From: Hysterangium stoloniferum
Taxonomy: Eukaryota > Basidiomycota > Agaricomycetes > Hysterangiales > Hysterangiaceae
DNA: 64,000 nucleotides
Reading direction: 5' to 3'
Assembly (NCBI GenBank): GCA_015178975.1
Contig: WHVD01000005.1
Location: 496,001 to 560,000, forward strand
In this document: positions 1 through 48,119 of the stretch, in pieces
Layout of the letters: each line of letters begins with the position of its first letter
Position numbering within the stretch: the first letter of the stretch is position 1
The notes under the pieces: generated by a model
What the model was told of the DNA's origin: nothing
The model's database searches: none
What the model saw: the letters and a program-made list of their open reading frames with translations, nothing else
Translations under genes and position numbers: made by a program

Positions 1-3000
1 AGGCTGACAAAGTGACTTTTGAGCATTAAAATGGGATCCCGGGGCGACGACCGAAGTATGCCCGCCAACGTCCTGGGTTTCAAGTGTTATTTAGTGTGCT
101 CGCTGGTTTTAAGAACTATCTTACACCCCAGCCATTTCTCTAACTTCAATTTTCTCATCGTCTAGGGAGCCGGAGACAACCTAAGCGCAATTAGTATGGC
201 ATGAGAATGCAAGATCCTTCATACCTTTAAAATCTCCAGGATCATCCTCTCCTCTGCTAAAATCGAACATCCTTGGCGAAAGTACCAAATTTGCAGCAAA
301 GGCAACGCATTCAACCTGGTCTTATAGGACGGTGAAGCTTTAATAGCGTGGAATATGTGGTTGAGAAGTGGCCGGATCAAATGGGGTGGTGGCGTCAGAC
401 CACACATCCGGTCCAGGACGAGACCGCTATGAGCCACTAAATCGTCATTATCGTTTATTTCACCGAATCGGAATAGTTCAGGCTGGCGAGGAGAATTGAG
501 CTTGGCATAGCATTGAATAAAAACGGCACATACCATCAAGGGAAGTATGTAATCAAACACTGAAATGGCTTGAACATCGTACATGGCCTGGTAAAGCCAT
601 TTACAGACTAAGACGGCTACGCGGTCATATGTGGAATCAAAAGCCCTGGGTCCAGGCACCCGTTGTCTTCTCCATACAGGGAACTTGCTGACAAGATCAC
701 GTACACGGTCGCCGTGATAAGAACCTCGCATTCCCATAATATCGAAGTCAGAGGGGAGTGTCCGTGCCTCTTTGACTAAACAGGACGCGGTCGGTATTGT
801 CAACCTTGGTCGCCGCTGTGCATTTCGTTAATATTCTCCCAACATATTTGGTCAAACACAACGCACCATTATTTTTGCTGAGAGCTCCAGTGCGTCAGCA
901 ATGTAACCACGCAGTTCGTCATGTTCGCTGGAGAGCTCTTTCCAATACCGGTCTATGCTCAGGTCAGTCCATGCTGTGAATTTCCATCCAAACTCCTCCG
1001 CCATTCCGCGATGGAAGGAAGCCACCTTGACCGCCTCAAAGGCGCTCTCGCTATTGCAATCCATAGAATTAAAAAGGTCCATAACATAAGTTACCAAAGG
1101 TACCAGCCGGCGTGGATCACGATTCCACGCGAGATACTGCAGTGACCATTAAAGTCAATATAGCTTACAACAACACAGAGCATGAAATATAACGCACCTC
1201 TAAGAACGAGGTCCATATGTTAAGTGTGTCAAGTTTCACATTAGATCCCAAGATCTGGGGAATCAAAGGTGTGAACCATGCCCAGAGACGTGTTTGAGCT
1301 GCCTGGGTCCAATGTTTAGAACCACCTATTATACCTGCTAAAAGTTCAGCCGCAGCTCTTTGCTTGTTCTGATCATCTGAATCGACGAGCTCATTTATCA
1401 CGGGCTGAACACTCGCGAGAGGAGCATCCTCAATCAGTTGGACTGCGATCAAGCGTCAGGGATAAGGAAGATGGTGTGAGAATAAGATGACGTGCAGATC
1501 GATTTTATAGCAGCTATGTTGTGCATAGTTAAATTCTCGTGATTGGTCTCTTCCGCAAAATGCGTGGCCACAGATCGCCAGAACGCTTGCTTACAGCAAG
1601 TGTCTTCCACCACACGGACGGCATCAATACTTCCAGCCTCCCAAGGTTGAAAAGTAGATTTGTCGGTCAAGGGCATTAAATACCTTTCGTCCGCCGACGC
1701 CCAGACCAACCAACCTGATTTCATGCTATCTTTAAGCACCGGTACTTCGGCCGCAAGCTTAGGATCTAACATGCTCTTAAATGATGCCAATACGCAATTT
1801 GTGTAGTTCTCAGAGGGATTTTCAATAGGGACTATCCTCTTCAGCGGGTTGTAGTTGATGCCGAGGGCAACCTCGCGAAGATCTGGACTGGAAGACGTAC
1901 GCAGTTTAATATATCGAAGAGCTATAGCAGGAATGAAAAAGGGATCCACGCTAAAACGGAAAGCAAAAAAAACTAACTTACCTTTGGTTATACCACTCAG
2001 AGCATAGTACCTCATCGTGGCATTTGAGTCTCGCGCCATGTCCAAGAACTACAAAAACTAAGCTTGGATCGAAAATTAGACTGCGTGACTAACATAGCTC
2101 AGCTGTGGTCCGTATATCGGTTCCTCTCGGCGGATAAGAGTCCGCAGTATACGTATAGCTACAATGGTATATTTCCAATGTGTTTGTGGATTCCGCGCAA
2201 GATCTGTAAGAGTGCGAGTCTCATAGAGACTATCAAAACTATGTAAGTCACCATAGCATAGACACCTACAAGTTCTTCAAAGCATTTCTTGTACAGGTTG
2301 ATGCGGTGCTGGGTATTATATGCCCCCTTTTTAACTAGCACGTCGTCCACCAGATCAGCAGGGAGAACAGCCTCTAGTTCGTCTACAGCCCGATTCATAC
2401 TTTGTAAATCCAATGAGTAAATGATGAAGGATGGTTCGACAAATTGGGCCAGGCAATTCTCCGCTATAACTGACAGGCAATTTTGAATGGAAACCCTCTC
2501 GTACACTTGGCAGGAAAACAATGCTTTGACGAAGTCCACGACAAGTGTGGGTTCTTCAGTAATTAAGTATGCAGTTTCTCAATTTCCAGATGATTTGGAG
2601 ATACGTACCAGTCATGGCATATTTAGCAAAGGCTGGGGTATTAATTTGCCATAATGCTCCTTTTACACGGTAATCAGGTGAGGCTGGTGTAAGGGCTTTA
2701 TATATTATCGGGAAAACACGCCGCCGCACGCCGTCATATATCTGAATAGAATTAGCTATTGCAGGTCAATTTATATCGGCGAAAGCGTACACCACACAGG
2801 TCCTCCAATAAACTTTGACTTGTAGCGCGGACTGAGAGTATAATTATTGGACAGCTCGTAAAGATAAAGAGTGAGGCATACTTGTTGCATAATGCCACAT
2901 ACTCCTAATAGTAAATCAATATTGAACTACTACTTGGCGCTTATTATTTGACGCACCACTCTGCGATTTCGTCAATTAAGGCATCTTGAAGATGGGATCG

Positions 3001-6000
3001 TAGCCGTTCAATGCTATTCCATCTCAACCGTGCAGAATGGTACAGGCTAGAATGATTTGCAACTTGAAAGAACGTCAAGAGAAAGTTACTGCAAGCTCAC
3101 TAACCGAGCCTTTCGAACGTAAAGCGCTCGAGGCCACGCCTTCTGTCCAGAATATTGTCGAGTGACATTCACTTTGGATTCATAACGATCTCGTTGGGTG
3201 TAATAGCTTTCCTTGCTATCTCCATACTCTAACAAGAATGTCCTCATGCAGCGTAGCACCATTTGAGCAGCGTCAAGAGTATTCTCCGGGCCTTTGCTCC
3301 TAAGATATTGTCCTGCACGGTGAAGAAAATCTCCAAACCGATTTCGTAGGTCCGTCACGAATTTATGACGGGGATCACCATCTAGCAAGGTAAATCCTGC
3401 ATTTACTGAATCTACGGGAGCGATAAACTCCGGAATCTCATTCCTACGTGATGGTTAATGGGGAACCATATTGAAGCGAGAAAATTAACCGACAAGATAT
3501 CCGTCGTCGTGAAAGCGTCATCCTGAGAAATAACTTCCTTTATGAAGGTAGGGATACCCCCAAAAACATTTCGTATGTAACTTAAATGCCTACCGATGGG
3601 GTCAGCTAAAGAATCTGCGCCATAAAGAAGTATGATATAACCTGCAGAAATCATTTCGCCAGACTTCTTGATCGCTAATGTTGTCCTCAAGAAGTGTATC
3701 CAGAGCATCCAACGAGGGCTTCACAATTTCTCGTAGGATTTCTAAAGCAAACTCGATCTCACCATCAGATGGTGTATGCCAAGTGACCTGTTGAAATTCA
3801 ATATGAAACCGTGCCTGCAAAATGATACCTACAGCAACTTTTCCTGGATCATAAAGTTTTCCCCAATGAGCATGATGGGACTTCTGAAACTCTAATGGCG
3901 TTAAGTACAAAATTCACTCCAGTAAATCGCAAAATTCACCTTCGCTCGACCATTCAGGTGGATTAACAAACCGACTTTCCGTGGGATACGTTTGTGTCAA
4001 AGTCAACAAAACTGTTGTTAAAAGTTTGCTCGCACGAGAGAAGCCTCTTTTCGATAGGGTTTTTCGTTGCAAAACTTTGAACAGATGCAGTATTTCCTTT
4101 TTGTAGACGAGGAGCTATCACGCAATGTTGTCGAATACGGAACATCAGAGGAGGGGACAGACAATACCACTTACTGCTTTTCCGTCGCTGAAATGTCACT
4201 CAGAAAGATCATCGCGGCACGTATGGGCAATAAAGACTTACTTAGAAATGACACCTCGTAAAATCGCCATAGCTGCGTGAGTACGTGATTAATATGGACA
4301 ATGTATCAATGAAAATGTATTCCATACTCCAGTGAAAAGTGGCATCAGACGGTAATGGAGCCGATGTCATAGACGTTGTCCGGACAGACGAGGCTCCATT
4401 GTGAAGTTCAGTCTGTATAGTAGTTATGCAGAACGGCAGGAACCTATCTAGTGCCTTGAGAGAGTTGGCATTTGAGATACATTCAACCAGCTGGTGAACA
4501 GCATGGACACAATTCGGTCGCACTGTCGTAGTTGCGTAATCATAGATTAGATTGAGAGCAAGGTCGAATAACGGCTCGGAAAGGTGAGTACATATTTGAT
4601 TGCAAGCCGCCATTACTGCATCGACAACTATGAAGTACGGTGTGAGCGCCTGAGACGGAAAGCAATGTTTAGAGATTAAGACCTACTTTCATTTTCGGAA
4701 CCAGAGCGAACTTCGCCGCCAGTGTCTTCAGGGAGGTTCTCTAATAAAAGAATCACTCGGCGAATAAAAGACGCAACCCAGTCGGGGAAGCCTCTCGTTG
4801 ATTCTCGAAGTAAAGCATCCTCCTCTGTCCTCGAGAGATGAGGTGTTTCTCCAGGTTCTATGCCATGAGGTAATTCGTCTATGACAAGGGCAGGTATGTT
4901 ATCAACGGAGAGATGTGCAATATCCACAGTTATTAACTGGGCATCCGAATCTGAACGCGGAAACTCCGTAAGGTCACCAAACTTGATGCTTTGAGAAATC
5001 TCGACTAGGAATGCTGTCGTGCATAGCTGCCGCAAGTGTATGAGCAGAGCTCAACAATGGAGCGTGAAAGACTCATTGACATACAGTTTTTGTAGGATCA
5101 TTCTAACAATTTTTGTCAGTACGTACATGAAGGGCTTAGTGGAAGTATGAATACCAAATCAATGCCAGGTAATAACAACTCAAGGATAGTTAAAAGATGC
5201 TTCGATCCTGGATAATAGATATCCCTGCTGACTAGGCTGAGAGCGACTGCCCCGAGAGCTTTGATGACGGCTGTAGTTCGGTGAGTCTATTAAATGTGTC
5301 GAGATTGGGCAAATACATCAATAGGCGTTTGCACGTACTTCGACAAGTGCTTCTAAAGAAGGAACAGCGCGCTCTAGTATTGGGTGTAATATAAGTTCTG
5401 GTTCCATAATAGACATGCTTTTGAAACATGATTGAATATTAGAAACGGTGGTTGGATCACGAGAAAAGGTGGCAAGAAGAGCCGGTGTTCGGAGGCAGCG
5501 TACAAGCTCCCGTCTTATTAAAGGGGTAAGTTGTCGGTGCTGAAGTATATCAATTAGTTGTGAATAATGTGTCTAGTTTGTAGACTTGCAGGTGGTGTTT
5601 TACAATCGGGCTTTCGTTCAGCATACCATCCTGCGGATCATATTTATCAACTTGAAGATGCAATGAAAGATGTAAGTAAATTCACGTTTATTGAACTCTG
5701 ACACAAGATATTTAATGAATGCACTTAGATCGGTAGTCCAAGTGCCTGAGTTCGATGGATGGAAAAAGCTCTCGGTGGATATAATCATCCGTGACAGCGA
5801 ATCCAATGCCTTGCATCCCGCTAAATACGCGTTGGGCGACCCCGATGTTTCCAATGGGTCGGTCCTCATGTCGGACGCACCATAAGGTGTGGTAGCTCTG
5901 GATCGTAAAAGAACAGGGCTATCGTTGGTCATTGAGTAAACAATAATTTTTGCCAATGAGTCTAAACAGCGAGCATGTAAACCTCAAGAAGTGCGGGATG

Positions 6001-7428
6001 ATTACAGGGTCCGTACAAATACGCCAGGTAGCTTTGGGAAGCCGTCCAATCTCATAACTAGCCCGACTATCGACTGTGGATCCGGTTGTTAGTGATCCCG
6101 AATTAGCTAATGGAATTTCTTTCAAAACCCATGTCAGTTAAACGGAGAAAAGTTGTGTCATGGTGAGAACTGACCCATGCTTGTAAGGCATTTGGACATA
6201 ATGGTGGCCCATTGGGCATTAGTAAATATGCCGACGTCCTTCCACAGACCGGGCCACTGGCCAGGGGTATCCAGGTCGCTACGGTCCCACATCGGGCGAT
6301 TCTCGCCCTCACTTAAGGCATCATCCGGTATCACGTCTATACGTTTAGGGTCGCTCACGCTGGGATCTACGTGCATTTCTGCAAGTTTACTGATAAATGA
6401 CCTAATCCATACATGAGTAGCAAATTCAACTATACCCCTCTTTTTTCAGAATTGGCACTTACAACATTCTATCGTCCCATAGACATGAGTTTATACTATC
6501 CCACATACGGAACATTAATGGCAAATAAGTTTGTGGATGTGACAGTGGAAGAAAAGTCGTTAAGTAGTATTGTGTTGCAAGGATGCTCTACTGTGATGAT
6601 CAATAAAAGTATTTATGACTCAAAAGGAGATTACTTGCATCAAGTAACGTGCCGTCAAACTGGGGGAGAAATGTCTCCAACATCTCATCTATAGCAGCCG
6701 GATGAAAGAAACGGCGGGATATTTCAGCGACATATCCGATATAGTAAGGAATTTGGCTAAATGTGCTTCACACAGATTCAAAGTCAGGCAATTCCACGTT
6801 GGAGGCACTCAGGACATACCCGACTTCGAACTGTCTTCTGGTGAGAAAAAGTTCCTTCTTGAGAATGTCATAAACAGGCTTCCAGGGCAGTCTCATGTCT
6901 TCAATAGTAATTTTCTTCTTGGAATGCAAGAATTCCGCTAGTCCATTAGCCCATGTGGACAGGAGGGTTACCGGCATGCCAGGTGTGACGCATAGTTCAA
7001 AATATACTCTCGCCAACTTAGCTCGTTTCTGGAGTGGTATGGGATATTTGAGCAAGACCCAGCTATATTCGCGTGGTGTAAGTGGTCATAATTTTCTTTG
7101 GAGAAGGCTCCTGGGACGAACTTGTCGATCATGGCATCCCATTGTAATAAACCGGGCTCATAGTCTTTCGCTTTTATGCACTTGTTGAAAATCGGTGAAT
7201 AAATAAGTATCTAGATTAAGACTGTTGACGTACTTGTACGATTCGCATAAGATAGAAATCTAAAAGTTTCTGCATCTCAGAGTTCGGCTCAACCGAATAT
7301 GGTAGACAAGAAGCATATGTTTGGAGCCTTTCCAAAGCAACGGTATATCTTTCATCTTTATGTCCTTTGTGGGTATGCTCGTCGTTTGCAACGAAGTTTT
7401 TGGATTTGAGAGGACACGACGCAGACAT
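1..7428 (-). CDS. Blm10/PA200-type proteasome activator, copy A (3' end outside window)
   Basis: A giant HEAT-repeat protein of the Blm10/PA200 family, which caps the 20S proteasome. The call rests on exon-by-exon similarity to copy B at 40808-48119, whose C-terminus is diagnostic. Matching blocks include the N-terminal region ending in WVLLKYP (WLLLRYP in B), an exon around 6600-6700 with FFHPAAIDEMLETFLP, and the late block RLNALPLLQIWYF (RLNALPTLAVFWY in B). I chose the ATG at 7428 (MSASC...) because the frame upstream has only a GTG. Coding continues to base 1: after introns near 150-215 and 60-115 the frame reads EVREMAGTLAGILRSSP, parallel to B, so the gene leaves the window intact. The C-terminal HbYX-type tail cannot be seen. 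The start lies only 76 bp downstream of the RXT2 stop. I saw no frame breaks in the stretches checked. It has more introns than copy B. Confidence 0.85.
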
Positions 7429-7504
7429 GTTTGAAACTAAACGCCTGCCAGCAAGCGCCTGTGAATGGACTAATTTTACAGATAGGATATAAGGGACAAA
7501 TAAT

Positions 7505-8567
7505 TCAAAGCATTTCACCCTCCTCCATCTCTTTCAGCGCACGCTCTCTGATTATTGTCCATAAACCTTGTTTCTGATTCCGGACCAAACCCAACCCTTC
7601 TCGGATTTCTTCCAGTCGTTCGACATATTCGCGTCCATCTTCTTGCAACTCTCGTAATGTTGCCAGGCCTCTATCTAATATCTCCTCCTGCGGCGTCTCA
7701 ATGGAACTTGTGGAAGCTTCGTAATTGGTAGGCAGAACAGCTTCCGACTGCGAGTCGGCCACATCTTGTGTCGGCTCGATAAATATCCTGTGGATAGTCG
7801 AGATAATCTCTGGGGTTGCAGACGGACGATCGCTGGTACTGCTGCCTTCACGCTCGCTAAAGTTCTCATCGCCCTCCACATCCTCTTTCTTAGGAATAGT
7901 TGGACTGCGGGGTGCTTCGCTGGGACTTTTCGCGCGTGGGACTCCCTCACTGCCGAGTACCTCCCAAAGTCTCCCCATTGCACGCCTAAGAGCTGATTCA
8001 CCTTCAATAAGTCCACATGTGGCTCGTTCCAGATCGTTTAACATCCGTGAGCGAAAGGTGTGTTGAGCTGCGGGATCCAGGACGAATGACGTGAAAGACA
8101 GGTGCTGTGTTGTTGGTGGTGGATAGGGTGCCACAAGAGGTGGGCTGGGTGAACGGAGATGAGCGAAACGAGGGGGTGATGGAGACCGCGCTTCAGCTGG
8201 TAGCATTCGTTTGATACGCTTTCGCGCTCTTTCCTCTACCTGCAGTCTAGGCGTAAGGCGATTGTCGGACGGGAATTAGTGGCGACCGCACCTCCCAGTC
8301 ATCCCGTTCTGGTCCCCAAGCCGCCAATTTACCTTTCTGAACCCATCTAGCCCCTTCAACTAGTTTATTGCCCCAATTTCCCTTGTTCACACCTATCGGA
8401 AGCTCAGCCTCCCGTTGACTTTGTATGGATAGATAGTTTGCATCATAGTCGCCATGCCTACAATTAGATTTAATGCACCATTATATCGGTTTCAAAATAA
8501 CGACCCACTCGTCTTTAGTAAGAGCTAGAGGCCGTTTTTGTGAGAGCATTTCAACTTGTATGACCAT
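7505..8567 (-). CDS. RXT2: Rxt2-like subunit of the Rpd3L histone deacetylase complex
   Basis: The N-terminal exon (about 8292-8455) carries the Rxt2_N signature: a YLSIQSQREAELPIG segment followed by GNWGNKLVEGARWV and GKLAAWGPERDDWE. After an intron (about 8240-8291) a basic stretch, VEERARKRIKRM, leads into a Ser/Pro/Glu-rich tail. Its end, about residues 180-230 of that exon, is a predicted coiled-coil (LATLRELQEDGREYVERLEEI). Rxt2 is a non-catalytic nuclear subunit of Rpd3L in yeast. The first exon is uncertain: I propose the ATG at 8567 and a GTGGGT donor that makes KDE run into HGDYDANY, but another upstream exon is possible. It sits between bioB (137 bp upstream) and Blm10-A (76 bp downstream), all on the same strand. 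Confidence 0.75.
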
Positions 8568-8703
8568 CGAGTTACTGCGCGGAGTTCGAAATTGTAGTGG
8601 GTTGCCGCATTTAGATTGCAGCAGATACAACGGTAGGAATAGAACTGTATGAAACTTTAAAAAATGGTGACGGAACTCTCTATTTGTGCATCTGATACAA
8701 AAT

Positions 8704-10307
8704 TTAAACATTTGGTAAAACTTCATTCGTTTGGGGATCAGAATTCAGCAACTGTGAAGCAGGGCCAGGAGGAGCAGGGCCAGGAGGAGCAGGGCCAGTG
8801 GGGGCATGACCTGAAAGCCGTTCTTGTTCGAAACTTCGCATTCCCTGTAGGCCCCAGCGCTCCATCATCGCCTTATCCTATAACACAATTGGAGGTCAGA
8901 AACTATACGTCTGGAGCAGATTGGAACTTACTTCGTCCCATGGCGAGCCTGAGTAAGATACAATTATCAACACGTGCCCACATTTTTATGTCAGAAACTC
9001 ACATGGTGTCGTCAACATGGCATCTCCCGTAAAAATAGCATTTGCACCAGCCATAAAGCTCATGGCTTGTTCAGCCTCGCTCAATGTTTGCCTACCTGCA
9101 GCAAGTCTTATAATCGTAGTCGGCATCGCTATCCGGGCGGTCGCAATAGTTCGAAGTATGGTTTGATGGGGAACAGGCTTATTGGGAACATTAATATTCA
9201 AATAGAGTGTAAAGACAAACTGGATATATACCTCATTGTTTTCCAACGGTGTCCCAGCAATGGGGACCAAAGCATTCACCGGGAACGACTCCGGGTGCTC
9301 TGGCATGCTGTGAATCACGTATTTAGCCCCGAGTCTGCTTCAAAAAGACTCCCGCATACTTGGCTACCTCCCACACCAGCCCTACACGGTCACAGTCGGA
9401 TTCTCCGAGACCAATAATGCCACCTGAACAGACGCTAATACCAGCTTCGCGAACGGCGGCGATGGTGTCAAGCCGCTCGTCGTAACTTCGAGTTGTGATA
9501 ACCTTTTCTCACTTGTAAAAACCGCGGGTAAAACCCCCGAAGAGTCATGAGAGAGACGCACGCTAGGGTAAAATTCACGAGACGTGTCAAGATTATGGTT
9601 GTATGCTGTGAGTCCTCTAAACTTCCAATCTTAAGGGATTCCGACCTATACGCCTATGGGACGACTTACGCTTCCTTTAATTGCTTCGCCTGCTCTGGAG
9701 ATAACATGCCAAGGGTGGTGCAGACCTCCATACCCATACCCCTGACTTCTCTTACCATTTCTAATATCTTTTCAAAGCCCCGTTTACGACCAGCTAAGTC
9801 TCTCCATGCAGCACCCATGCAAAATCTTGTACTTCCATTTTCCTTAGCTCGACGAGCTGCCTCAATGACAGGCTCGATTGAAACAAGCCTGGATGCCACC
9901 GTAGCTGTGGAATAGCGAGAGGACTGGGAGCAGTAAGAACCTTGAGGGAGAGTAAAATATATGCTGGCTATGGTGCATTAAAAACCTACAATCCTCGCTG
10001 CACCCGCCGCCTACAAGTCTCCCGTAGCTTTAAAATAACTGGTTCGAGGATTCGGTTGGGACTCACTCTTGATATTCATCAATGTGCACAACTGGATTTT
10101 GGAGGGATCGTGATGCTGTCGGTGGACAGAAGCTGCTCTGAAAACCAGATCGAGGAGAGGTGAATCATAGATTGTCTGAATTTCTTGTTTTGTCCATGTC
10201 TGGCGAGATGCACTTGAAGGTAAGATCGAAGCTGTAGCATGTCCTCGTGCTATGGTGAATCCTGCAGCACGATTGCAGATACGTGACCGCATAACTGGAG
10301 GGAGCAT
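8704..10307 (-). CDS. BIO2: biotin synthase (radical SAM), mitochondrial
   Basis: Converts dethiobiotin to biotin, the last step of biotin synthesis, normally in mitochondria. The N-terminus ([17 protein letters not shown]...) is basic and Ser/Ala-rich, as in a transit peptide. The radical-SAM motif CSEDCSYC (CxxxCxxC) is assembled across two introns and partly encoded by a 21-nt exon at 9990-10010. Further family blocks are [72 protein letters not shown] and [13 protein letters not shown]; all expected regions are present. The C-terminal tail ends in a short Gly-Pro-Ala-Pro-Pro repeat (about 8756-8805) unlike the conserved core. It is divergent from RPS27 and shares a 605-bp upstream region with it. 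Confidence 0.95.
8758..8806 (-). repeat. short tandem repeat encoding GPAPP units in the biotin synthase tail
   Basis: A 15-nt unit (agggccaggaggagc on the plus strand) is repeated about 2.5 times. It encodes [13 protein letters not shown] just before the stop codon of biotin synthase. It lies outside the conserved catalytic barrel, so length changes would probably be tolerated. Confidence 0.8.
9990..10010 (-). other. 21-nt micro-exon in the radical-SAM motif of biotin synthase
   Basis: GCGGCGGGTGCAGCGAGGATT on the minus strand, bounded by ..TTGTAG and GTAGGT. Joined to its neighbours it gives K-SGGCSED-C, supplying the first Fe-S cysteine and one base of the second. Confidence 0.8.
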
Positions 10308-10912
10308 CGTGTCAGGGAAAGCAGAACGAGCGAAAGATAATCAAATGAGTATGAATTTGAGATTGTCGTGATATTGTTATTATCGGACTCAATCACTCGA
10401 TCGAATTAGTGGAATAGATTTGGCGCAATTGCCGAGCCGGAGAGCCGACGGAAGACTGTTTTTTTCAAAATCTAGGGTAACTTTCCTTCGTCTCCTGCGA
10501 TAAGAGATTTCCGTCAATCTATGGGGTCACTTTTCGCTGGACTGGTGTTTGCAATTGGGTTGGGACCCGGCTACGCGATTAGGATCAACAAACGTGGGGA
10601 GATACTTGGTATACGAGGCTCTAAATGATAAAAGTAAACAATAAAATATTCCACTTTAATGTAGCCCCCACTGCTTGCTTGCAACTAGTACTGTCGTAAT
10701 GACTCTTGAATGACATTAACGCAACTCCCAAGTCATCCAGAGTCATTGCGGGTCCGGATTAGGAGCATTTAAGCTCCGACTCTAACTGTTACAGTCCAAG
10801 TCGAAACCTTAATAATCCCCCATTGGCGTCCACAGCGACAACCCCCATCCTCGCACCTTTACCTCAAAAAAAAGCAGCCTAATAGCGCACTTTTTGCTCC
10901 CAAACACACAAA
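10308..10912. promoter_or_regulatory. shared divergent promoter of biotin synthase and RPS27
   Basis: A 605-bp region between two divergent starts. Visible elements are an inverted pair of the 9-mer AATGACTCT (10698-10706 plus, 10739-10747 minus), which resembles the TGACTC core bound by Gcn4/AP-1-type bZIP factors; a palindrome GGAGC-ATTTAA-GCTCC near 10762; and CCAAT boxes in reverse (ATTGG) near 10552 and 10822. C-rich and A-rich runs precede the RPS27 start. Factor assignment is inference from yeast. Confidence 0.45.
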
Positions 10913-11327
10913 ATGGTACGTTGTGCTGATTCGTGTCGCGCTCTCCATCAATATATCTTTTTCGTTTAGACTCTTGCCGTCGATTTGCTTCACCCTTCAG
11001 CTGAGACCGAGAAGAGGAGCCACAAGCTCAAGCGTCTCGTACAAAGTCCAAACTCTTACTTCATGGATGTCAAGTGCCCAGGTACATGCTTGGTAGTTTA
11101 TTGGCGTCCTATTCTAATCTGGCCTTCTAGGTTGCTTCGCAATCACGACCGTTTTTTCGCATGCACAAACCGTAGTGCTCTGCGGGTCATGTGCAACTGT
11201 GTTATGCCAACCCACCGGTGGTAAGGCCAGGTTGACTGAGGGTATGTATTTGCCACGATGTATCGGCCCAGCGGTATCATCTGACAACTCTGCGAATTTA
11301 GGGAGCTCGTTCCGTCGGAAAAACTAA
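10913..11327 (+). CDS. RPS27: 40S ribosomal protein eS27
   Basis: Small zinc-binding protein of the 40S ribosomal subunit. The first exon is the ATG alone (10913-10915). The intron (10916-10969) follows at once, and exon 2 starts [16 protein letters not shown]. Exon 3 holds the zinc finger CPGC...CGSCATVLC (four Cys), and the last exon ends GSSFRRKN. Joined exons 10913-10915, 10970-11081, 11131-11241 and 11302-11327 give the full family length of about 83 residues. A single-codon first exon is common in fungal ribosomal protein genes, and a finder that demands longer first exons will miss this start. Confidence 0.95.
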
Positions 11328-16483: not shown

Positions 16484-17927
16484 TCAAGCAGAAAGCGAAT
16501 CATCACTTGCTTCTGCCGCAGCTGACTTGACGGGATCTGATCGATAGTCATTAGTACAAAACGCGTCCTCAAACCCATTATTCACTCACCAAAATATGGA
16601 TGTGATTGTGCTTCTAATGCGGTCAATCGCTCCTGATGATCATATTTCAGTAACTTGTCTAGAAAGTCAATTGCCTCGTTTGAAATGTATCGTTGGTTTT
16701 CAGCATTGACAAATCGTGTCCACGGTTTTTTCGGGTATCTGTCACAATTCGGGCCATTAAAATGCTTTTCTAGTCAAGTAGAAAGGGTCTTTACCTGCCC
16801 AAAATGTCGTCATACTGCGCGTCTAACTCGATATCATATTTCTCCAGGTACGCGTATAAATCGTCTGTACCCAGAACCTTAGTAATCTTGACTAATTGAT
16901 CATAATTATCGTGCCCGTGGAAGAAGGGCTCCTTGCGGAAAATCTGAAATACAATTTGTAAGCACACACAAAGACGCTGCTATGATAGTGAAAAGGCAAC
17001 TTGCCATAGACGCGAACATGCAACCCAGACTCCACATGTCCAAGCTGTAGTCGTACTCTTGGAAATCTACAAGTAATTCCGGCCCTTTGAAATATCGCGA
17101 CGCCACTCGTACATTATATTCTGTCTTTGGATGATAAAATTCTGCCAGTCCCCAATCAATGAGGCGTAACTGCGGGAAGAGCGTGTTAGTATATATTTTC
17201 TGTAATGATAAACACCAGGCGATTGCCAACCTTCCGCCGTTCATGATCAATCATTACATTGTGTGGCTTGACGTCACGATGCATAATGCCTTTTGAGTGG
17301 CAGAAATCCAGTGCCTGTACCCAAACGTTACCCATCCATCACGCACTCCCCAGCCACCATTCCTTGCTCACCTTCAGGAGCTCCAAAATGTAGAACCTCA
17401 CATCAAAGTCCGTAAACCGTGCGTACAGGACCTTGAAGTCGACGTTGTGGATGTACTCCGTGATCAGACTCGGGATCTTGGATGATGGGTCCCGCACGAC
17501 ATCCAGCAGTGCAATCACATTCGGGCCGCCCGCCAAATTTTGCAGAATCTTGATCTCCCGCTTTATCTTCTTCTTCTTGACCGGCTTGAGGACCTTGATG
17601 ATGCATTTTTCCTCGTTGACGATGTTGATCCCCTCGAAGACCTGCGCCGCCGCCACGAAGATGAGCCCGGAACCCCCCCGCCTCTCGGAACGACGCTCTC
17701 ACCTCGGAATATTTTCCCCGCCCCACCTTGCGCACGATCTCGTAGTGGTCCTGACTGCCCCATTGCACTTGCAGGTTGTCTACAGGTCACCGGCAAAAGA
17801 ACGTTAAAAATTGAGCAGGGACGACAGCCACAAAACCGAGTCACGAACCATAGTCGTGCCATGACGGGCCCAATCGACTGTTTACGTCTGCGTATGTTCG
17901 TGCTACTGACGGTGTCGCTGAGGGCAT
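16484..17927 (-). CDS. CKA1: casein kinase 2, catalytic alpha subunit
   Basis: Ser/Thr kinase of the CMGC group. Exons in order: [20 protein letters not shown]..., then after an intron [23 protein letters not shown] (glycine loop), [21 protein letters not shown] (catalytic Lys and CK2-specific basic cluster), [13 protein letters not shown] (catalytic loop), [13 protein letters not shown] (the DWG that replaces DFG in CK2), [14 protein letters not shown] and [32 protein letters not shown] exon follows, and finally [16 protein letters not shown]...HPYF. It ends EASDDSLSA. Length and motif set are complete. The start at 17927 is fixed by the conserved N-terminus across a 5' intron. Confidence 0.96.
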
Positions 17928-34627: not shown

Positions 34628-34635
34628 GTTTGCCG

Positions 34636-34656: not shown

Positions 34657-34677
34657 ACGGACTGCTGTAATGTGAGT

Positions 34678-36744: not shown

Positions 36745-37356
36745 AATTTGGGGCGTGAATTGAATTTTTTGGCAGAGATAGATTCTTGTTCGAGAATTCA
36801 AAGAAGTGTGAATTGAATTGAGAGGAGTTTGAAACGTGAAGTGAATAGATTTCATATCCGCGGTGCGCCTATCCTGATGTATCCTGATGTATCCTATTGT
36901 ATCCTGTGTATCGCACAATATCCCACAATCTTGATTCCGTCGAACCAAGCACCCTGGTCTTCCCTGTTCTCCTTCCCTTTCTTCCTTCTCCTCCTACCTC
37001 CATCCTCTTACCCTCCTGCTCCCTGCTCCCCCGCCCCCACCTCCTCATCACACTGTCTAAATTATTAAAAATTATTCAGTGATATCAAACTCAACTTCTT
37101 ATTTTTTTTTTTCAACCCAATTTCGCTACAATCGATCCACAACGTGTTCCCCACGTTTCATCATATACCGACATCCATCTCTTCTCCTGCCAGTTCCCTC
37201 CCTGAACACACCCCATCCATCGATCGTAAATCGAAAAACGACTGATCAAAACGACCCAAACGACATACACACGACTCTCTCCCAATTTTATTCAACATAT
37301 ACCTATCTCTATCTAGGTTATCATCAAAGGTGTCTCCTTTTACCCCACTCAGTCAG
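36745..37356. other. intergenic region and long leader of the CCCH gene
   Basis: Contains a small tandem repeat (about 36869-36910, unit tatcctgatg) and a strong C/T-rich tract (about 36955-37050), typical of fungal core promoters. A second pyrimidine-rich leader runs to the ATG at 37357. Confidence 0.6.
36869..36910 (+). repeat. tandem repeat, unit tatcctgatg
   Basis: Two exact and two decayed copies of a 10-nt unit in the intergenic region upstream of the CCCH gene. Confidence 0.6.
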
Positions 37357-40146
37357 ATGAGAGACTTACTTCCTTCGCCCGCAGCAATGCATCCCGTTCT
37401 CACATCTCAGTCCGCTGCTACCTTTCGTCCCCTTCCCCCCCTCAACGTAAAGCAAAATATCGATTGGGCTACAGAATGTCAGACGCCGCTCACCGCTAAT
37501 GAAGACCCTAACCCTTCCGTCTCTTCCACTGCCGGTTCAAAGGATAACACCGCTTCTCCAAGCCCCGGCTCAGACGACGGCCCAAACGAACCCAACACGC
37601 CACCCTCGCGCCCATCCAACACTCATCAAAAGCCCTCTTTTAATACCAACGGCTCCTACAGTTGGCGAAGCATCACTGATGACCTCGTAAAGATGCAAAT
37701 ATCAGAGTCAAAGCCCGAGCAGGACGTCTCCTCTCGCTATCCAATTCCTACCCATCTGTCTTTTCAGCCTTCCGCACAAGCTGTCCATTCCCGGGCGTCT
37801 TCCGGTGATACCTCCACTGCTTCCGAGGTTCCTGCTCCTCCTTCCGCCGCTGGTTTACAGATTAACACTGCGGTAGGCAGCGCCCGCACGAGTCAACCAT
37901 TCACTGCTGCTCCTGATTTCCGTCCTCGTTCCTTCCAGGACGGTCTTGACGCAGAGAGAAAACGTTTCCAGCCGATAACCCCCGTCAAGGCTCAAGTTCC
38001 TGCTATAAACACTGCAGTGGGCTCTGTTGATGCCCAAGGTCCTCACACCTCGCCCCCTCGTGAGCGCTTCCAGTCTCCACAGGTTCAGCGCGTTCAGGCA
38101 CAAGAACAGCAGGCTCGTTATCCGTCTTTGCAAGATCAACAGCCTACGTATCCCTCAATTCAGCAGGGCCAATTTCCACCACAAAGTGCACAGCCGTATC
38201 AAAATAATAACAACGGTCAGCAGCAGGCCCAGGGTCAGCAAGGCCATCGACCGCCGCCCATTAATGTTGTCCATAACCCTATTGACTTCCGAATGACTCG
38301 TGCAGATGATGAGTACATGCAACCCCGCATCCCGAACTCCACCCAGTTCCAACAAGGCGGCCGCGTTCTCTCTGACAATGCTGGATACCCTCGTCCTCCA
38401 CCCCCCGGACCGCCCCTCAGTACCCGCAACATATTCCATACCCAGCATACCCTAGTCCACACCTTCCCCTCGGCCCCCCGACACCCCAGCTCTACGATCT
38501 AGCGCTACCCAATTCCCCATTCCGTAATGCCCATCAACATTCGGCATCGGACCCTGCTGCCCTCGCTGCTGCTGCAGGCATGAATATAGGCCTCCGTGAG
38601 CAGGTCGCGCTCATGCAAGGTCATCTTCCCACTTTACATCCGTTCAATCTCAATGTGGGAGGTAGTCCGCTTCCCCCTCACGCCACAATGTTGTATCCCC
38701 CACAGTTCTTCCCCGGGCAGGATGCATATGCCGCCGCCGCCGCCGCCATGCAAGGTTTTGTGAACCGTAACCAACAGCAGCAGCAGCAGCAGCAGCAACC
38801 CCCGTTGAGTGCGAATTCGTATGGCAGCCCACCGGGGTCTGCGACCAGTCAAAATGGGAACCCTGGTGGTCCGAGTGCGAATAACCGTAAGTTGGGCCTT
38901 TACAAGACCGAATTGTGCCGTAGTTGGGAGGAGAAAGGTAGTTGTCGATATGGACCCAAGTGTCAGTTTGCTCATGGGGAGGATGAAATTAGAAAAGTTG
39001 CGAGACATCCAAAGGTAAACAATATTAGTGTATATGCGCATTGATGTTTTGCTGATATTTGAAAAAAAAAAATTTTCAGTATAAGACTGAAATTTGCAGG
39101 GTGAGCAGCATTGTCAAATTTATTAAAAGCATTTTCGTCGTTTTAACGCCTATTTCCTCCAGACGTTCTGGGTTTCTGGCTCATGCCCATATGGAAAACG
39201 ATGCTGCTTCATCCACACCGAGCTCCCCGCGCCTGGCGTAACTCCTGTCGCTGGGTCTCCACCCGCCGAAACTGCATCTGGCTCTTCGAATCCTACCTCT
39301 GGCACTTCTGCCTCTGAGCGTGCTCGATCTGGTAGTGTCACCAGCGATGTGAACGAATCTGCACCCGTCTCCCTCCTCACCCGTATCCAAAATCAGCGCA
39401 CGGCCGATGCCCAAGCTGCAGTTAACGCTGCCGCGAACGCAGGTTCAACACCCACAGAAGGCAGCGCGACACCGACATTCCAGTTCCCTCAACAACGCCC
39501 GGGTGCACTCCGTGTTGACACTAGCACGATTGATACGCAATTGTCGATGAAACAGAACAAGTCTGCATATCCTTACATGAATAATCAATCTTTCTCGAAA
39601 ACTGGCGAACATGTGCAGCTTATCTCGCCTGGACCGGTTACTGCTGGACCTGACCTTGGTCGTTCAATTGCAAGGTTCGACTCCGCGTATGATGTGAGTA
39701 ATATCTAGCTATTTGTACTGATTACCATATCCCGACCTTGACACAACTTATAGCGCTTCAACAAGGCCCAAACGCCAACAGTCGCACAACAGGCCCCTAC
39801 GAATATGCAAACAGCAACAAATAACCCCCTGCGCCATTCGTTCAACGGCACTGAGTCACTCAACCTGCAGGCACAACTCTCCCTTGCTACGCCTCCCATC
39901 CCCACCAAGGTCTCCCCGCCTCCTAACCCCGCGCACTCGCGCTCTGAGAGCGCAACTGGGAATAACAACTGGAACCCTGGGTTCTCGCGTAGTGGACTCG
40001 GCGGCATGCCGTCGAATGCAGGCTCCCCCTGGTCAGGTGAGCTCAGTGTTGGCGCGAACAGGATGAATGTCAGCAACGGCTCACCGGGAGCACAAGGCTC
40101 TGCTGCTGCAAACGCCAACAATGTTAACGAGAGAAAATGGTCGTAA
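37357..40146 (+). CDS. tandem CCCH zinc-finger RNA-binding protein, TIS11/CTH1 type
   Basis: Binds AU-rich 3' UTR elements and promotes mRNA decay in known family members. A long disordered Ser/Pro/Gln-rich N-terminal half is followed by an Ala run and a Q10 tract (about 38740-38805). Finger 1 is [18 protein letters not shown] with PKCQFAH; finger 2 is YKTEICR joined to [18 protein letters not shown]. Both are Cx8Cx5Cx3H with the YKTEL/YKTEI lead-in. The YKTEICR exon is only 21 nt (39080-39100). A Ser/Asn-rich tail ends NERKWS. One join is doubtful: the frame must change near 38365-38420, best explained by a 56-nt phase-0 intron with a weak GTTCTC donor ([11 protein letters not shown]) or else by a frameshift in the C6 run at 38401. 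GTG at 37330 is not the start. Confidence 0.88.
38774..38804 (+). repeat. CAG-type polyglutamine tract
   Basis: (CAG/CAA)n encoding ten consecutive Gln in the linker before the CCCH fingers, preceded by a GCC-rich polyalanine run. A likely length polymorphism. Confidence 0.8.
39080..39100 (+). other. 21-nt micro-exon carrying the first Cys of CCCH finger 2
   Basis: TATAAGACTGAAATTTGCAGG between ..TTTTCAG and GTGAGC; encodes YKTEICR. Skipping it keeps the frame (21 nt) but removes the first zinc ligand of finger 2. Confidence 0.8.
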
Positions 40147-40807
40147 ACATATCGTTACTTTTACCGTATATGTGCTGTCTTTCCGTGTATCCCTCTCCCC
40201 CCTTCCATTTATCGCAATCACCATTTTCCTGCCATCGGATGCAATGATTATGATTTTTCCCTCTCTGTTTCTCTCCTCTCTGTTCCTTTTTACATGGACA
40301 ATCTCACGTCCTCCATCTGATTTACACTTGTTTACTAGTCTGTCTGTCTCCATTTACTACTCTTTTAGTATCTCTCGTCTCGCTGCCCTAGCTCTTGATC
40401 GAATCTCCGACGCCTAGTGTGGTACACTTTCGTCTTGCATGTTCTTGTCCTTGATACACTTGCTTTCCCATCAATTTATTACAGTCCTACTAAATCAAAG
40501 CTTTGCCCAGTTGCCAATCTCCGCGCACATGCTATCAATTGCAGTAGTGTGGGAGGCTGTAAGCCTGGTGGCTTACGACATACCGATTACATTATCACAG
40601 ACGCGCGTAGTATCATTAATCGTTTTACTTACTGTCATCATTGTGTATTGTACTCGCCGTTCTCGAGGAATACAGTTTGGTCCTATCAACGTCTGGACCG
40701 ATGCCAATGTAAGGCTGCATTAGACAGCAGCCTTTCAGAGGCTTAGTATTAAAATAACATTCACATCATTGCATGTCAAGTAGGTAGTAGTCACAGAGAG
40801 AAACAAT
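40147..40807. other. convergent 3' regions
   Basis: About 660 bp between the ends of the CCCH gene and Blm10-B. Pyrimidine-rich at first (40180-40330). Open frames here look accidental. No gene seen. Confidence 0.5.
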
Positions 40808-43800
40808 TTATGCATAATAAGAGTTTCCAGAAAGCATCGTAGACAATCCCTGAAGTTGATCCTCGTTGAATTGGTGTTGGTCGATATGCCACATATCTTG
40901 ATGAGTCTTCTTAAAATCCGCGGCGCATCTATTAAGGGATTTCAATACGTCATAAATTTCTAATCATCCTACGAGAGCTCACCTTCTAATCGTCTGGGCG
41001 ATAGGCGGAGGATCAGTTGCGTGCGGCGCCAGCTCTGCACAAAATAATAGTTAGTAATAATAGAAGCTCACGCATCCGCCGCCTCACCTTCGCATAATGA
41101 TGGCATCCATGGAGCAACCGTATATGGATATGCGTCGATCAGCGCGACAATGCCAAGTATACCTGCATGCAGTTTCTTCAACGTTTCCGCGTACGTAGGA
41201 GCCTGTCGCGAGGGAAGACGAGCCCGTCGCACGATGCCCACAAATTGCTCCTTGAGAGGTAAAATACGGTGGCGCTGTGAACTTCGCAGGACGGAGCTCA
41301 GCGTTTTGGCGGCCATCTCCCGGACTTCGAGATTCTCGTCCTCCAGACATTGCATCAACACGTCCATCATCTTGGTCATGGATGCCTCAGAAAATGATGT
41401 TAAATTGCGGTACCAAAATACTGCCAAGGTGGGCAATGCATTGAGTCGCACACGCCAACTCGTTGAAGACACAATAGCCTCAGTAAACATCGTCGCCACG
41501 GTTTCGACATACTCGTGAGGAGGCACCACTGCGGATAGCACGTAAAGGACAGCCGTCGAATACACTTGTAAATCAGAACTCTATATTTTCAATGGACGTT
41601 AAATTGAAGCAGGTGTTCGCAACAAACTAATCGTATACTCACATCATTAAGCTCTGCCATTTCAAGGAATGAGGGAAGAAGCGGTGCAGAATACGGGAAG
41701 ATAGCCGGCGCAAACGCGCTATGCGCGCCGGTCCATATGAACTGCAACAGAGTTAAACCAACCTTGTCATACTATTGCAAAACGTCATTCCATGTTTTCT
41801 AGTTTCAAAACTGTTGTATCAAAACACACCTGCGATTGAGCCTGGTTTGGCGGTGGCAGGCGAGCTTGCTTCCACTCTGGGAATAAGCGGACAAACTCCT
41901 GAATTCTCTCTCGGTGCTTGACCTCTCGAAGGCGAAGAGGGTCCGGCTGCGTCATCACAGCAGAAAGCAAGTCTTCCGTTGACGTGTAACCTGGATGCCA
42001 TTGTATTTTGACAACTGCGTCAAGGTCAGCAGCAATGTGAGCTCTGATCTACACATGGTGTGAACCCGACTACGGCCAAGTGCATTGAAATAGTTTGACA
42101 GACCTCAGCATATCCAGTGTCTGCATTATCGAAAAACAGTTGAACATATTCCTCGGCATATGGTTCGAACCGCTGGCCAAGGCAATCGACCATTATTCCA
42201 ATAAGACTTATCGATTTGCTCACTAACGGAGAATTAATATTCGTTATAAATGTGGTATGAGTCAACGCACTCAAAAATGGTGACCCGCCAGAAAACTCGA
42301 GAGGAAGGGAACGGATGAAGTTTATTAGAGGCCGATTGCGCCGTGGATCCCAATAACGAAGTTGTAAAGAAAACACGGACTCCCAGATCTGTACCGTATC
42401 AGGCGTAATCGCTGAAAGGATGCGAGGTAGCCGGGGAACGATCCATGCCCAGGCTTTATCAGACGATTGGCTAGGCCAATGTTTGGAGGCTAACGAATAT
42501 TAAAACATTAGAATCATACAACCTTATATTGATATGGTCATATAAAACCTCTTAGTATGCCCTGTATGATTTCGGCAGCAGCTCTTTGCTTGAATCGGTC
42601 GCCATCTTGCCATAAAGGTTCCAATACAGTTAGAGCGGTCTCAAGGTGTCGATCTTCAAACATTTTATCTGGTCGGTTTTCAGTGAATATAATATAATAC
42701 ACCCAAAGAGATAAATACCCACATAAAGACTTGATGAACGCGATATGATCTGATCGCACATCAGTCGTACCGTTACCTGCCGTACTCGACTCTTGTGCCC
42801 ACAGAGAAGATAGTTTTTCGAGCCAGGACGACTCATCAATTGCTTGCCGAAGAACTTTCAAAACGGAAGCGCTTGAAGACTCCCAAACAAACGTAGGGCC
42901 CGTCTCGCCAGGTGGGCGATATGCCTTGACATCTTTACTCCAGACCAAAAACCCAGTAGGTAGCTTGTCGACAAAGTATCTGGGTACAATCAACACTTTT
43001 GGAATAAATAAAGAAACTAAACATGGCTTACCGATCACTTGTATCTGAGATAGGTCGATGCAGATTTGTCATAAATACTTGCGGATCGTCTAGATGTACG
43101 ACAAGAGAGAGGGGGTTCTGCCAGTTATCAAGCCAAAGGTCCTCAACAGTTCGACTCCAGGATCTAATCTTTACCATCCGAAGAAGTCTTACAAGAGCAC
43201 TACATGAAAGAAATCAGCGCATCCGAGAATGGGCGTGGAGAAAGCTCACCGAATGCTACAAGCCCGTAGTGACGGGTGATCGCTTAATGCGCTCTCTACA
43301 AAGAACTGAGCAACGTCGGGAGAAGGAGCAATATCTCGCCTGATCATATGCGATAGAAGACGAGCAGCTGCTTGCACGTATCTCCACTGGTATATTCTTA
43401 TTATGTCAAGTGGACTCTCAAACAAAAACAGGAACTAACGTGAGTAGTTGGTGCCCGAGCCACTTCTAAAGCGGACTTCAACATGGTCTCGTAAGTCTTT
43501 TCCTTGCATAACAACGTAGGATTTAGAGTAGACATAGACTTGCTCAACAGCGGAAGTTGGCTGTCCGGAAGTCCATACTCTAGTTGTATAGCTGAAATGG
43601 CCGTATCCACGTTTGGTAGCTCCATCGTATATGTATGAGTCGCAAACCCTTCCGGAGTAAAATTACCCAGAGCTTCTATTAATGTTGTCGAAACGAGCTT
43701 CTGGATGCTAGGCTACTAGGCCTCAGTGTCTTGACGTTTCTCTTTTCTGATGTGTGCATACCTTCTCTTGATGTTGGCAATTCAACAGAGTTTCTATGTA

Positions 43801-46800
43801 TCTACTAGCGTACTGGCGATCCTTCACGGCATAACTAGCGGTGGACTTGCTGGAAAGAACATATAAGGCGCCTTTCATACGGTCAGGATCCGTATTTTTC
43901 GCCAACGCATCTAATAAATGAGGTAAAGTGAAGCGGGTAGATCGAATATAGTGCTGCATGACATCCATGAGCACAGATTGACCTTGTCTATACAATCCCA
44001 TCGAGTCATGGCGAGTGAAGAAAAATCCATAAACTTATGCTTACCGTCGGACACGAGTGTAAGGTGATAATGACAACTCTACGAGGTCCCGTAGTAGATC
44101 GTCATCCAGCTCGTCACGTTGACGAAACATGGAGTTCAAGTAAACTCTAGTAGAATGATACAACTGAGTACGCTTCAATAGAACGAGGCGAGAGAACTGC
44201 TTCGACTTGGACCATAAACGTTGTAAACTGTAATGAAAGGGTTGGCATTATGATTGAATAAAGGGCGTAATTCCCGGTGGAGGAACTCACTCCCTAACAA
44301 TAATATAACCTTTGTTGAGGGCTCCAAATGTTCCTGCCGTGACTCCATATTCGAGAAGATAGATGTCAATAGCCCGCGAAATAGAGAGGATTGCATCGAT
44401 ATGGTCCTCTGCGCCAGACTCCCTCAACGCAATGGATGCCCTGTGCAGTAAATTTCCAAATTGCCTTTTGTGAGTCATGACCTTCTGGTATCGAGGATCT
44501 TCTGGGTCTGTCAAGGTATATCCAGCTTCAATCCTCAAGGGAACAGGCAAAAATTCAGCCATTTCTGCGCCATCTAATATGCAGGGATTTACAACTTTTT
44601 TCTGTCCCTCAAGAATGATGGTGGGCAGCCCACTCCATGACGATCGTACGACATGGAGATACCTATTATAGTATAGATTCACCAAGTATGTAATGATCCA
44701 AGAGTTGTGACAACTTACCGGCAAAAGTCGTTCCTCCAGACACTACCCCATGTAGATTTGGGCTGATCTAGCAAAGTCTCTAACTTAACGATGCTAGGCT
44801 GCACAATCTGCTCCAAGAATTCTAAAGCAAATTCAATCTCCCCCTCAGAAGGGACTAAGGATCACTGAGTGAAAATGCTTGTCCGGAATGGTAACATCGA
44901 ACCTACCATGCCATTCCGCCTTCACGTCTTTGGCTTCGTAGAGCTTACCCCAGTATACAAAATTATCTTGATCAAACGCTAAAACAGCGTCAGCCAAAAC
45001 CACAATATCGCACAGTAATAAGAACACACCCGGATCGTCCCATTCGTCGGTGTTCACAAAGCGGGAATTAATTGGGTGGACCCCAGTGACAGTGTTAAGT
45101 ATCCTGGCAACCAACCTCCCAGTACTGGTATAACCTCGCTCGCTCAAGGTCTTATCGACCAGGAGTGACACCAGCTTTAAAATATCGCCTTTGTGCTGGA
45201 GTAACTGAGAAGAGGATCTATAAGTACGCAGGACATTGGAGAAAATAAACACCAACACTAGGGCCCCCATATCCCATACAGCCCCGAAGGATGGACATGT
45301 CTGCGGTTTAAATCAGTATTGAAATGGTATAGACATTATATAGATATTCACTCCAATGCAAAGTCGTGTCAGATGGGATGGCACCATGGGTGGATGTCGT
45401 TCTTATGTTTGAAGCGCCATGTCGTAGCTCTATCTCGATTTGTTCCATACAATAGGGGAGGAACTTTTTGATAGTTTTCTCAGGCTTCACCCTAGCAAGA
45501 CAGCCAATCAGGCCACCAAAGGCTCGAACGGCATTACTCTTTGCGTTGGACGTTGCATAGTCGTATGTCAAGTTCAGAACGAAGTCGAAGAGAGGATCTG
45601 ATAGATGCAAGCATATGACATCTATTGTGCTCTTCAGCGATTTGATCACGCTCTCCTCCTGTTTGCCGCCCTATTATGGAATAAGAACAAGCTATAGATA
45701 GTATTACACGGTCCAACCTTACCGTCGTGTTACGTTTCCCACCTTCTTCTGGCAGATTCTCATATAGAGCAAATACTCGTCTAAAAAAGCTCACGACCCA
45801 ATCTATGAAGTTGGTCAGAGGATGTGTGCGGCCAAGACGTGTACATAATTCTTACCAGCAAAGCCTGCGGTGCTGTCCCGAACGAGAGCGCGTTCCTCAG
45901 CTCTGTCAAGGGTTTGGTCCGACTCAGTTCCATCAGGAAGTCGCTCCTCTACATTTGTCATAACAGTATCACCCATATCGTCAGAGATTATCCTTTGGGA
46001 TGATATCTGGGTTAAATCAGCGATTTTCACGCTTTGGAGAACAGCAACCAAAAACATAGTTGTACAAATGGTCTTAGAGGGATCATTCTAATCGAAAGTG
46101 ATCAGCTAAACACCAACTAACCAATGTGTTGGAACAAACCAGATCTATTCCAGGAAGACACAATTCTAAAAGCGGTAACAGATGCTTTTGACCCCCGAGC
46201 CATAGATGCTCTGAAATCAAAGGCAGCGCCACTCCAGATAGCGTGCTGAGGACGGCTGTGGTGCGATGTGTTTCGTTGATACTTTCCAGACCGCTATAGG
46301 CGCGCTCCAAAATCGCTGGCATTACCAAAGAAGGCTGAAGGATTGCCATAATTCGCAGAGCTCCCTGCGCGAAAGACATCGAAACTGGATCCTTCGAAAA
46401 CATGGATAAAAGGGCTGGGGTGCGGAGAATAAGAACGAATTGACGTTTAATCGCAGGTGTGAGTCGATGAGTCTAGGTAGAATTATATAAGATTCGGGCT
46501 AATCATATCGAATCAACTCAACTAGTGGCGTACGACAGGAGGACTGTTCTTCCTCCTTCCAGCGTTTCGCAAATTCCGCACAAACTCTATGTAGGAAGGT
46601 CGTCAGGCAGAGCGTCCAGATGCCTGCGTTAGACGGATGGAAATATGTCTCTGTGCTGGTGATAAGCCTTTCAAGAGTGTCAAGTCCTCTAGACCCCGCC
46701 AGAAAACGCTTTAAGCCGTTTTCAAGGCCACCCTCGTTGTTCTGGCTCTGGATTACCCTGGGTGGCCCATCAACACTCATAGAGTAAACCAAGATCTGAG

Positions 46801-48119
46801 CAAGGTGATCTAGATAGTCGTGTCAAATCCAAGGCCAATTGTCTTTAGTGAATAGTTACTGTATCTGTTTGTATTTTTCTTAATCTGAAGGGACTGCGAG
46901 TCAGCTTGTCCATCTGCGTGGCTTCCGGTGGTAGATGCCCCTCTGGTCGCCCCGACAGGGATGTCTTACATTTGATCATATTAACCACAAGACATTATGA
47001 ATATAGCATAAGCTCTTACTGAAGGAGCCAAGACACTTCCCCATAAGCACGGTCCATTGAGATTCTGAAAATATGCCCACATCCTTCCACGGCACGCCGC
47101 TTTCAGTGCCCTCTTCATGAGCAGATCCTGTGACATGTTCCACTGCCAGGTTGCCCATTATCTCTAACATACGCTCATCAACGAGCTATTATGAAATACA
47201 CAAATGATTAGACGAAAAGGGTGATAAAATGCTGCGACCCACATGGGAGTTCAAAGATTCCCAAAGGCTAAAAAGGAAAGGGACATACTTCTCGCATGCT
47301 GTACGAGGCAAAAACGAGGCCAGGACATGGACCACAATAAGATACGACTGCATATACGACCGATTCAGTGTGTCTGACGATGTGCATGAAAAGGGGACAT
47401 ACATCACGTGTTAATAAAGGAAGGAAGGTAGAAAGCATGGCCTCTATCTGGTTGGGAGAATAATATATCTTGCACTGGTCGGCTACATAAAGCAAGATAT
47501 TGACCATATTTCGCCTAAACTACGAGTCAATGGAAACCACATAAAAAAATAGCAATCCGCACGAGTTGTCTAAACCCCTCTTTTTTGGAAAAAGCTCTTT
47601 CAGCAAGACTTTCCATAGAGGTCGCCAGTCCAGCTCCATGTCGGACAAATGTAACTTTCTTTTTGAACCAGGGCCTCTGTTGTCAATAAGCTTGACGAGC
47701 ATATCGGCCCAACCCCTTACTAAAACAGGATCCATTCCAGGCACGAGGATAAGCTCATAGTAGAGCTTGAGGAGGCTAACACGCATAGCCGTTGGCACAG
47801 GATAGCGAAGGAGCAGCCAACTACAACATATTTTCAGGATTGGCACTTTGGAGATCATAGACATATCGTACCCTTGAATCATATGATCGTAGTTATTTGC
47901 GACTGCCCATGCTCGTGACTTCACGCTAACCACAAGCCTTCCCACAAGGTATTGGAATTTCCCCTGCATCTCAGGTATGGACTCGCATTTATAAGGAACG
48001 GATGCGAGATAAGTTTCCAAGGACCGTCGATCGTACTCATATGCGTCTTCATTATCCTTTGGAGTACCGATACCTGGAGTCTCTGGCGTAGACAAGTCGA
48101 TGTCCATGTCGATGTCCAT
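40808..48119 (-). CDS. BLM10: Blm10/PA200-type proteasome activator, copy B (complete)
   Basis: HEAT-repeat cap of the 20S proteasome, nuclear and cytoplasmic. The start MDIDMDIDLSTPETPG (48119) is followed by RRSLETYLASVPYKCES, then WLLLRYPVPTAMRVSLLKLYY and DWRPLWKVLLKELFP. The middle contains many HEAT-like exons (for example PSLVMPAILERAYSGLESI, FDFVLNLTYDYATSNAKSN). The C-terminal DUF3437 block is the clearest: TLKKLHAGILGIVALIDAYPY, VAPWMPSLCE, then across two short introns APHATDPPPIAQTIRR and CAADFKKTHQDMWHIDQHQF. The protein ends NSYYA, the HbYX-type tail by which Blm10/PA200 docks between alpha subunits and opens the gate. About 18 short introns; no break found. It is divergent with AIM18-like over 259 bp. 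Confidence 0.93.

Follow-up and report, generated by a model that had tools for sequence, protein, structure and literature searches.

Yeast has one Blm10 gene, and the two PA200 paralogues of the zebrafish genome, psme4a and psme4b, come from the teleost genome duplication. In the available text of the 2015 survey by Fort et al. (PMC4453063), PA200 genes are described as unique in each genome surveyed and the C-terminal domain PF11919 is taken as the signature of PA200 orthology; Coprinopsis, Laccaria and 'agaric' each have zero mentions in its main text, as available. PA200 is reported to dock by its YYA end between alpha5 and alpha6 and by the loop Thr562-Lys574, opening the 20S gate (PMC7077846, available text). 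Opinions on what PA200/Blm10 does still differ, as far as the accessible parts of both papers go (PMC4453063, PMC7077846). A literature search on PA200/Blm10 copy number and fungi found no fungal pair named in titles or in the opening lines of abstracts.

We analysed a window of 64 kb, contig C441 496001-560000, from a genome of 111,116,353 bases in 554 contigs. Positions below are those of the window unless a contig is named. The window holds two Blm10/PA200-like genes, each identified by gene model, Pfam and genome matches:

1..7428, running past the left edge of the window, minus strand: copy A, Blm10/PA200-like gene, ATG at 7428, 36 exons, 1958 amino acids
40808..48119, minus strand: copy B, Blm10/PA200-like gene, whole within the window, 30 exons, 1915 amino acids

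The gap between the copies is 33.4 kb and the distance from start to start is 40.7 kb. The initial annotation had put the two genes at these coordinates on one strand, about 40 kb apart; gene models and genome matches confirm both positions, the minus strand for both copies, and the spacing.

Gene models were built by a homology-free gene finder based on codon usage, then by spliced alignment of copy A and copy B, each to the other, and finally by inspection of doubtful junctions, several of which were placed by hand. The codon-usage finder fuses both copies with adjacent genes, and the gene ends were placed by homology and by hand. An earlier gene finder that relied on five-base statistics retained no more than 12 genes, with 12.8 kb of coding sequence, and it was dropped in favour of the codon-usage model. 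The homology-free pass gave introns identical to those of the final models for 25 of 35 in copy A and 23 of 29 in copy B.

Both proteins belong to the Blm10/PA200 family by several measures. PF16507 (HEAT_PSME4_mid) matches copy A with E 8.3e-178 and copy B with E 8.3e-186, PF23096 matches both, and with these HEAT regions the sizes of 1958 and 1915 amino acids fit a single chain of about 1800-2200 residues. The Pfam scan of window proteins detected PF11919 in copy B only (E 6.7e-31), copy A being cut by the window edge; the genome search located this domain of copy A outside the window, at contig C441:495685-495948 (E 8.2e-28, domain positions 2-88 of 88). When a profile built from both copies was run against PDB, the 8 distinct sequences that it hit at E <= 0.001 were all PSME4 or BLM10. 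A mid-region query for Blm10 relatives in prokaryote and viral collections gave 42 and 61 pattern matches, with no relative among them. The domain and tail features are as follows:

3635..5797 (contig 499635-501797), minus strand: exons of copy A matching PF16507, residues 395-932
44709..46675 (contig 540709-542675), minus strand: exons of copy B matching PF16507, from the genome search
40811..41175 (contig 536811-537175), minus strand: PSME4_C (PF11919) of copy B, split by introns, from the genome search
40811..40819, minus strand: codons of the YYA (HbYX) tail of copy B; the identical tail of copy A lies outside the window

Whether copy A ends in a YYA/HbYX tail had been posed as a question by the initial annotation, and reading of the adjoining 10 kb answers it positively. 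The last exon of copy A runs on unbroken past the window edge to ...FDEEQLSTLSTMLSGNSYYA, followed by a TGA stop at contig C441:495682-495684, about 320 bases beyond the window. The C-terminal end of copy A is STLSTMLSGNSYYA and that of copy B is ...FNEDQLQGLSTMLSGNSYYA, so that MLSGNSYYA is common to both. In PDB chains, human PSME4 ends in CYYA and yeast BLM10 in SYYA.

After splicing, no internal stop is present in the 1958 codons of copy A or the 1915 codons of copy B, and the models contain no frameshift; both copies are thus open through all exons of the models, as the initial annotation had seen for the exons it checked. Two apparent lesions in copy A were rejected. A candidate nonsense mutation at 3914-3916 falls within a 48-base intron, and an apparent frameshift near 1496 in the first spliced alignment was replaced by a GC-AG intron, each at a position and phase common to a copy B intron. 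The scoring of GC donors was widened only after this frameshift had appeared. The junctions concerned are:

3892..3939, minus strand: copy A intron with the apparent in-frame stop, GTGAAT..CATTAG, equal in position and phase to copy B 44979-45029
44979..45029, minus strand: copy B intron without in-frame stop, paired with copy A 3892-3939; its boundary comes from inspection and not from the homology-free pass
1443..1495, minus strand: copy A GC-AG intron with the poor donor T|GCACGT; copy B has the GT-AG intron 42669-42722 at the same position and phase

GC-AG introns make up 3 of 35 in copy A (6638, 5589 and 1495) and none of 29 in copy B, which has a GT-AG intron of equal position and phase at each of these places. 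Copy A would be cut short if the intron at 1495 stayed unspliced. Weak donors are also seen at 3641 in copy A and at 46522 and 42548 in copy B. Three introns have lengths in multiples of three: 3939-3892 (48 bases), 45029-44979 (51) and 42270-42223 (48). The last two, both in copy B, carry no in-frame stop, so that a gene finder may translate straight through them and insert spurious residues. As a scale for the open frames, a neutral simulation was run 200 times from the copy A coding sequence, with substitutions only. At 0.1 substitutions per site it produced a mean of 20.8 stops and at least 10 in every run; at 0.02 the mean was 4.7 and the minimum 0.

The copies share part of their intron structure. 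Twelve introns coincide in alignment column and phase (12 of 35 in copy A and 12 of 29 in copy B), of which 4 were predicted in each copy independently of homology and 8 were placed, in one copy or both, only via the other copy or by inspection, which biases this count toward agreement. The chance expectation is 0.19, with a maximum of 3 in 20000 random placements. One intron called without homology in both copies is:

7063..7121, minus strand: copy A intron preceding WVLLKYP; its copy B counterpart is 47821-47871

This intron, which precedes WLLLRYP in copy B, had been proposed as shared, and the gene models agree. They also uphold the earlier reading that an intron before CIKAKDYEP is exclusive to copy A and that two copy A introns surround EVREMAG where copy B is uninterrupted. 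Copy B in turn has introns absent from copy A, two of them near the C-terminus.

Over their full length (1887 aligned codons) the two proteins are 38.1% identical. Identity at the three codon positions is.493/.607/.300, a pattern that is that of protein constraint. In the 201 fourfold codons whose residue is identical in both copies, the third base is the same in 28.9%; composition alone would give 27.0% at saturation. Silent sites are therefore saturated, and pairwise dN/dS between A and B is uninformative. By alignment columns, identity ranges from 23-28% (1200-1500 and 1600-1800) through 41-57% (400-1000) to 62% in the last stretch.

Relative rates were estimated with human and yeast pieces taken from PDB alignments of the mid and C-terminal regions (1126 columns, of which 883 contain all four sequences). 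In this comparison, which spans about half of the protein and uses two distant outgroups only, the branch of copy A is 0.61 and that of copy B 0.59. Human and yeast agree at 172 sites, 79 of them in the mid and 93 in the C-terminal region; copy A keeps 102 of these residues and copy B 105. The human residue is kept by one copy only at 35 (A) and 51 (B) mid sites and at 60 (A) and 50 (B) C-terminal sites; for the yeast residue the counts are 34 and 34 in the mid region and 37 and 43 in the C-terminal region. Judged from these sequences, neither copy looks relaxed.

The same alignment leaves the timing of the duplication wide. Copies A and B group together against yeast in 52 of 100 bootstraps, and the AU test gave p values of 0.70, 0.30 and 0.38 for the three possible arrangements of A, B, yeast and human under LG+G4, and of 0.29, 0.69 and 0.38 under LG+C20+G4. 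The best grouping changes with the model and none is rejected; with the groupings statistically equal, the duplication may have come before or after the split between ascomycetes and basidiomycetes. Branch sums are 1.20 between A and B against about 2.26 from copy A to human. From a naive clock we infer only a duplication at roughly half the fungus-animal age, and rates often rise after duplication.

Searches of the whole 111-Mb genome found no third Blm10/PA200 copy with PF11919 or PF16507. PF11919 gave three matches, one in copy A and two exons of copy B, and all 13 matches of PF16507 lie inside copy A or B. Between the copies are genes with choline kinase, GTP cyclohydrolase N-terminal, DnaJ and protein kinase domains (6 of 10 scanned exons matched a family), and a stretch of a kinase gene at 16484-17927 has one match in the genome, itself. 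When the gene models were compared with the window, only those of A and B matched anywhere beyond their own positions; repeats inside merged models would stay hidden in this search. On this evidence A and B are an old pair separated by unrelated genes, neither a segment duplication nor a second haplotype. Just upstream of copy B there is a match to an Nramp-type metal transporter (49608-49913, E 7.2e-11).

We consider it highly probable that A and B are two full-length Blm10/PA200 paralogues, which would have arisen when a gene with introns was duplicated at the DNA level long ago, and would both be under purifying selection. In favour of this reading are the open frames, the three Pfam regions, the identical YYA tails, the shared introns, the similar rates and the absence of any other copy from the genome matches. 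The initial annotation had called the pair an old duplication kept by selection rather than a fresh copy or pseudogene; open frames, saturation and similar conservation favour this. The dN/dS that it had proposed as a check is uninformative for the A-B pair.

The closeness of the copies, still only 33 kb apart, would suit a fairly young duplication with both genes evolving unusually fast. This is unlikely in view of the saturated silent sites and of intron sets in which no more than 12 positions are shared, out of 35 in A and 29 in B. Somewhat less probable is that one copy, more likely A, is poorly transcribed or mis-spliced and is being lost. The three GC-AG introns of copy A, one with a non-consensus donor, point that way, but its model runs over 1958 codons without stop or frameshift, rates and retention of conserved sites are similar in A and B, and mean donor/acceptor scores, compared between these two genes only, are 1.38/1.46 in copy A and close to the 1.16/1.67 of copy B.

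The deep divergence, together with a grouping of A and B against yeast that lacks clear support, would fit one copy being an orthologue that came from another fungus by horizontal transfer or hybridisation and not a duplicate of this lineage. We hold such an origin to be quite improbable, given 12 intron positions in common and the location of both copies on one contig; GC3 values of.447 and.486, inside the range of.415-.584 of the gene models, say little. An origin of the two regions as diverged haplotypes, or through faulty assembly, can practically be dismissed: repeated stretches occur elsewhere in the genome, but nothing in the region itself favours it, protein identity is 38% with silent sites saturated, the intervening gene stretch is single-copy, and apart from A and B the window shows no cross-match between gene models.

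If A and B are two retained paralogues, what is described for the family suggests how they might act. Each copy would form a HEAT-repeat dome seated on the alpha-ring of the 20S, with its YYA tail entering between alpha5 and alpha6 and opening the gate, and the capped 20S would carry out ubiquitin-independent breakdown of peptides and unfolded proteins. A sequence of similar length to the PA200 loop Thr562-Lys574 aligns by eye in both copies and the tail is kept exactly, from which both would be expected to cap the same 20S. The copies would then compete for one dock and may differ in the substrates they admit, or in place or timing: identical tails with 38% overall identity suggest the same dock with other properties changed, and divergence that is greatest away from the tail suggests that entry, partners or location would have changed more than docking. 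Vegetative and meiotic forms, as proposed by the initial annotation, would be one candidate division of labour. More tentatively, and in our view doubtfully, Blm10 may have split early, in early Basidiomycota or before the separation of Basidiomycota and Ascomycota, into two subfamilies, one of which was lost in yeasts; keeping both would provide two capped proteasomes for different substrates or life stages.

A search for the 20S family in this genome gave 30 exon matches at about 16 places. One alpha subunit, which we take to be alpha5 and so the expected partner of the YYA tail, is present as two intact-looking genes (C112:1730500-1736000, L005; C420:427000-432000, L006). They show 7 differences in 242 codons (dN 0.013, dS 0.153), and the second has a different end. 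Three partial copies of this putative alpha5 gene (L007, L008 and L009, on C112 near 1.60, 1.63 and 1.66 Mb) are all frameshifted, two also with a stop, and the sequences of L008 and L009 match exactly across 4456 bases, one inverted relative to the other. We draw no functional link between these copies and the Blm10 pair.

Two long-kept and similarly conserved copies constitute a natural test of the role of the cap, with two domes on one docking tail, and make it possible to compare the partners, substrates and expression of the two domes. The pair may be common in mushrooms yet unremarked. If it is widespread there, Blm10 deletion work in ascomycetes covers only part of the fungal family.

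Compared with known members, copies A and B fall in the same family as human PA200/PSME4 (PDB 6KWX, 6KWY, 6REY; best E 1.1e-160 with the A+B profile) and share its C-terminal region and YYA end, whereas identity to each copy in two compared regions is 29-33%. Yeast Blm10 (PDB 4V7O, 9D0T; E 2.2e-64) is likewise of the same family with the same YYA end, but it is longer (2143 amino acids) and 21-23% identical in the compared regions. In the bromodomain-like region, the available text of PMC7077846 gives Asn1716 and Phe1717 as the acetyl-lysine residues of human PA200, and Tyr1663 and Asn1664 as those of yeast Blm10. Human and yeast differ from each other there, and the alignment shows neither pair kept in copy A or B; histone targeting via those residues cannot be assumed for the copies. 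FgBlm10 of Fusarium graminearum, likened to the copies here by description, is a filamentous-fungus Blm10 treated as one gene, with a YYX motif conserved among the species aligned there (PMC9499325, available text). The genome search found PA28 at one locus (C516:360872-361175, two exon matches) beside the two Blm10 copies. This is in line with a basidiomycete, because PA28 is recorded by Fort et al. for Basidiomycota but not for Ascomycota (PMC4453063, available text). Zebrafish psme4a and psme4b are two PA200 paralogues in one genome as here, with an origin unrelated to that of A and B. The usual single-copy state that the initial annotation had assumed for Blm10 in fungi agrees with the one PA200 gene per surveyed genome in the available text of the 2015 survey (PMC4453063); the two genes described here depart from this, an observation of that survey and not a definition of the family, and the pair is a newly seen member of a known family, notable against that survey.
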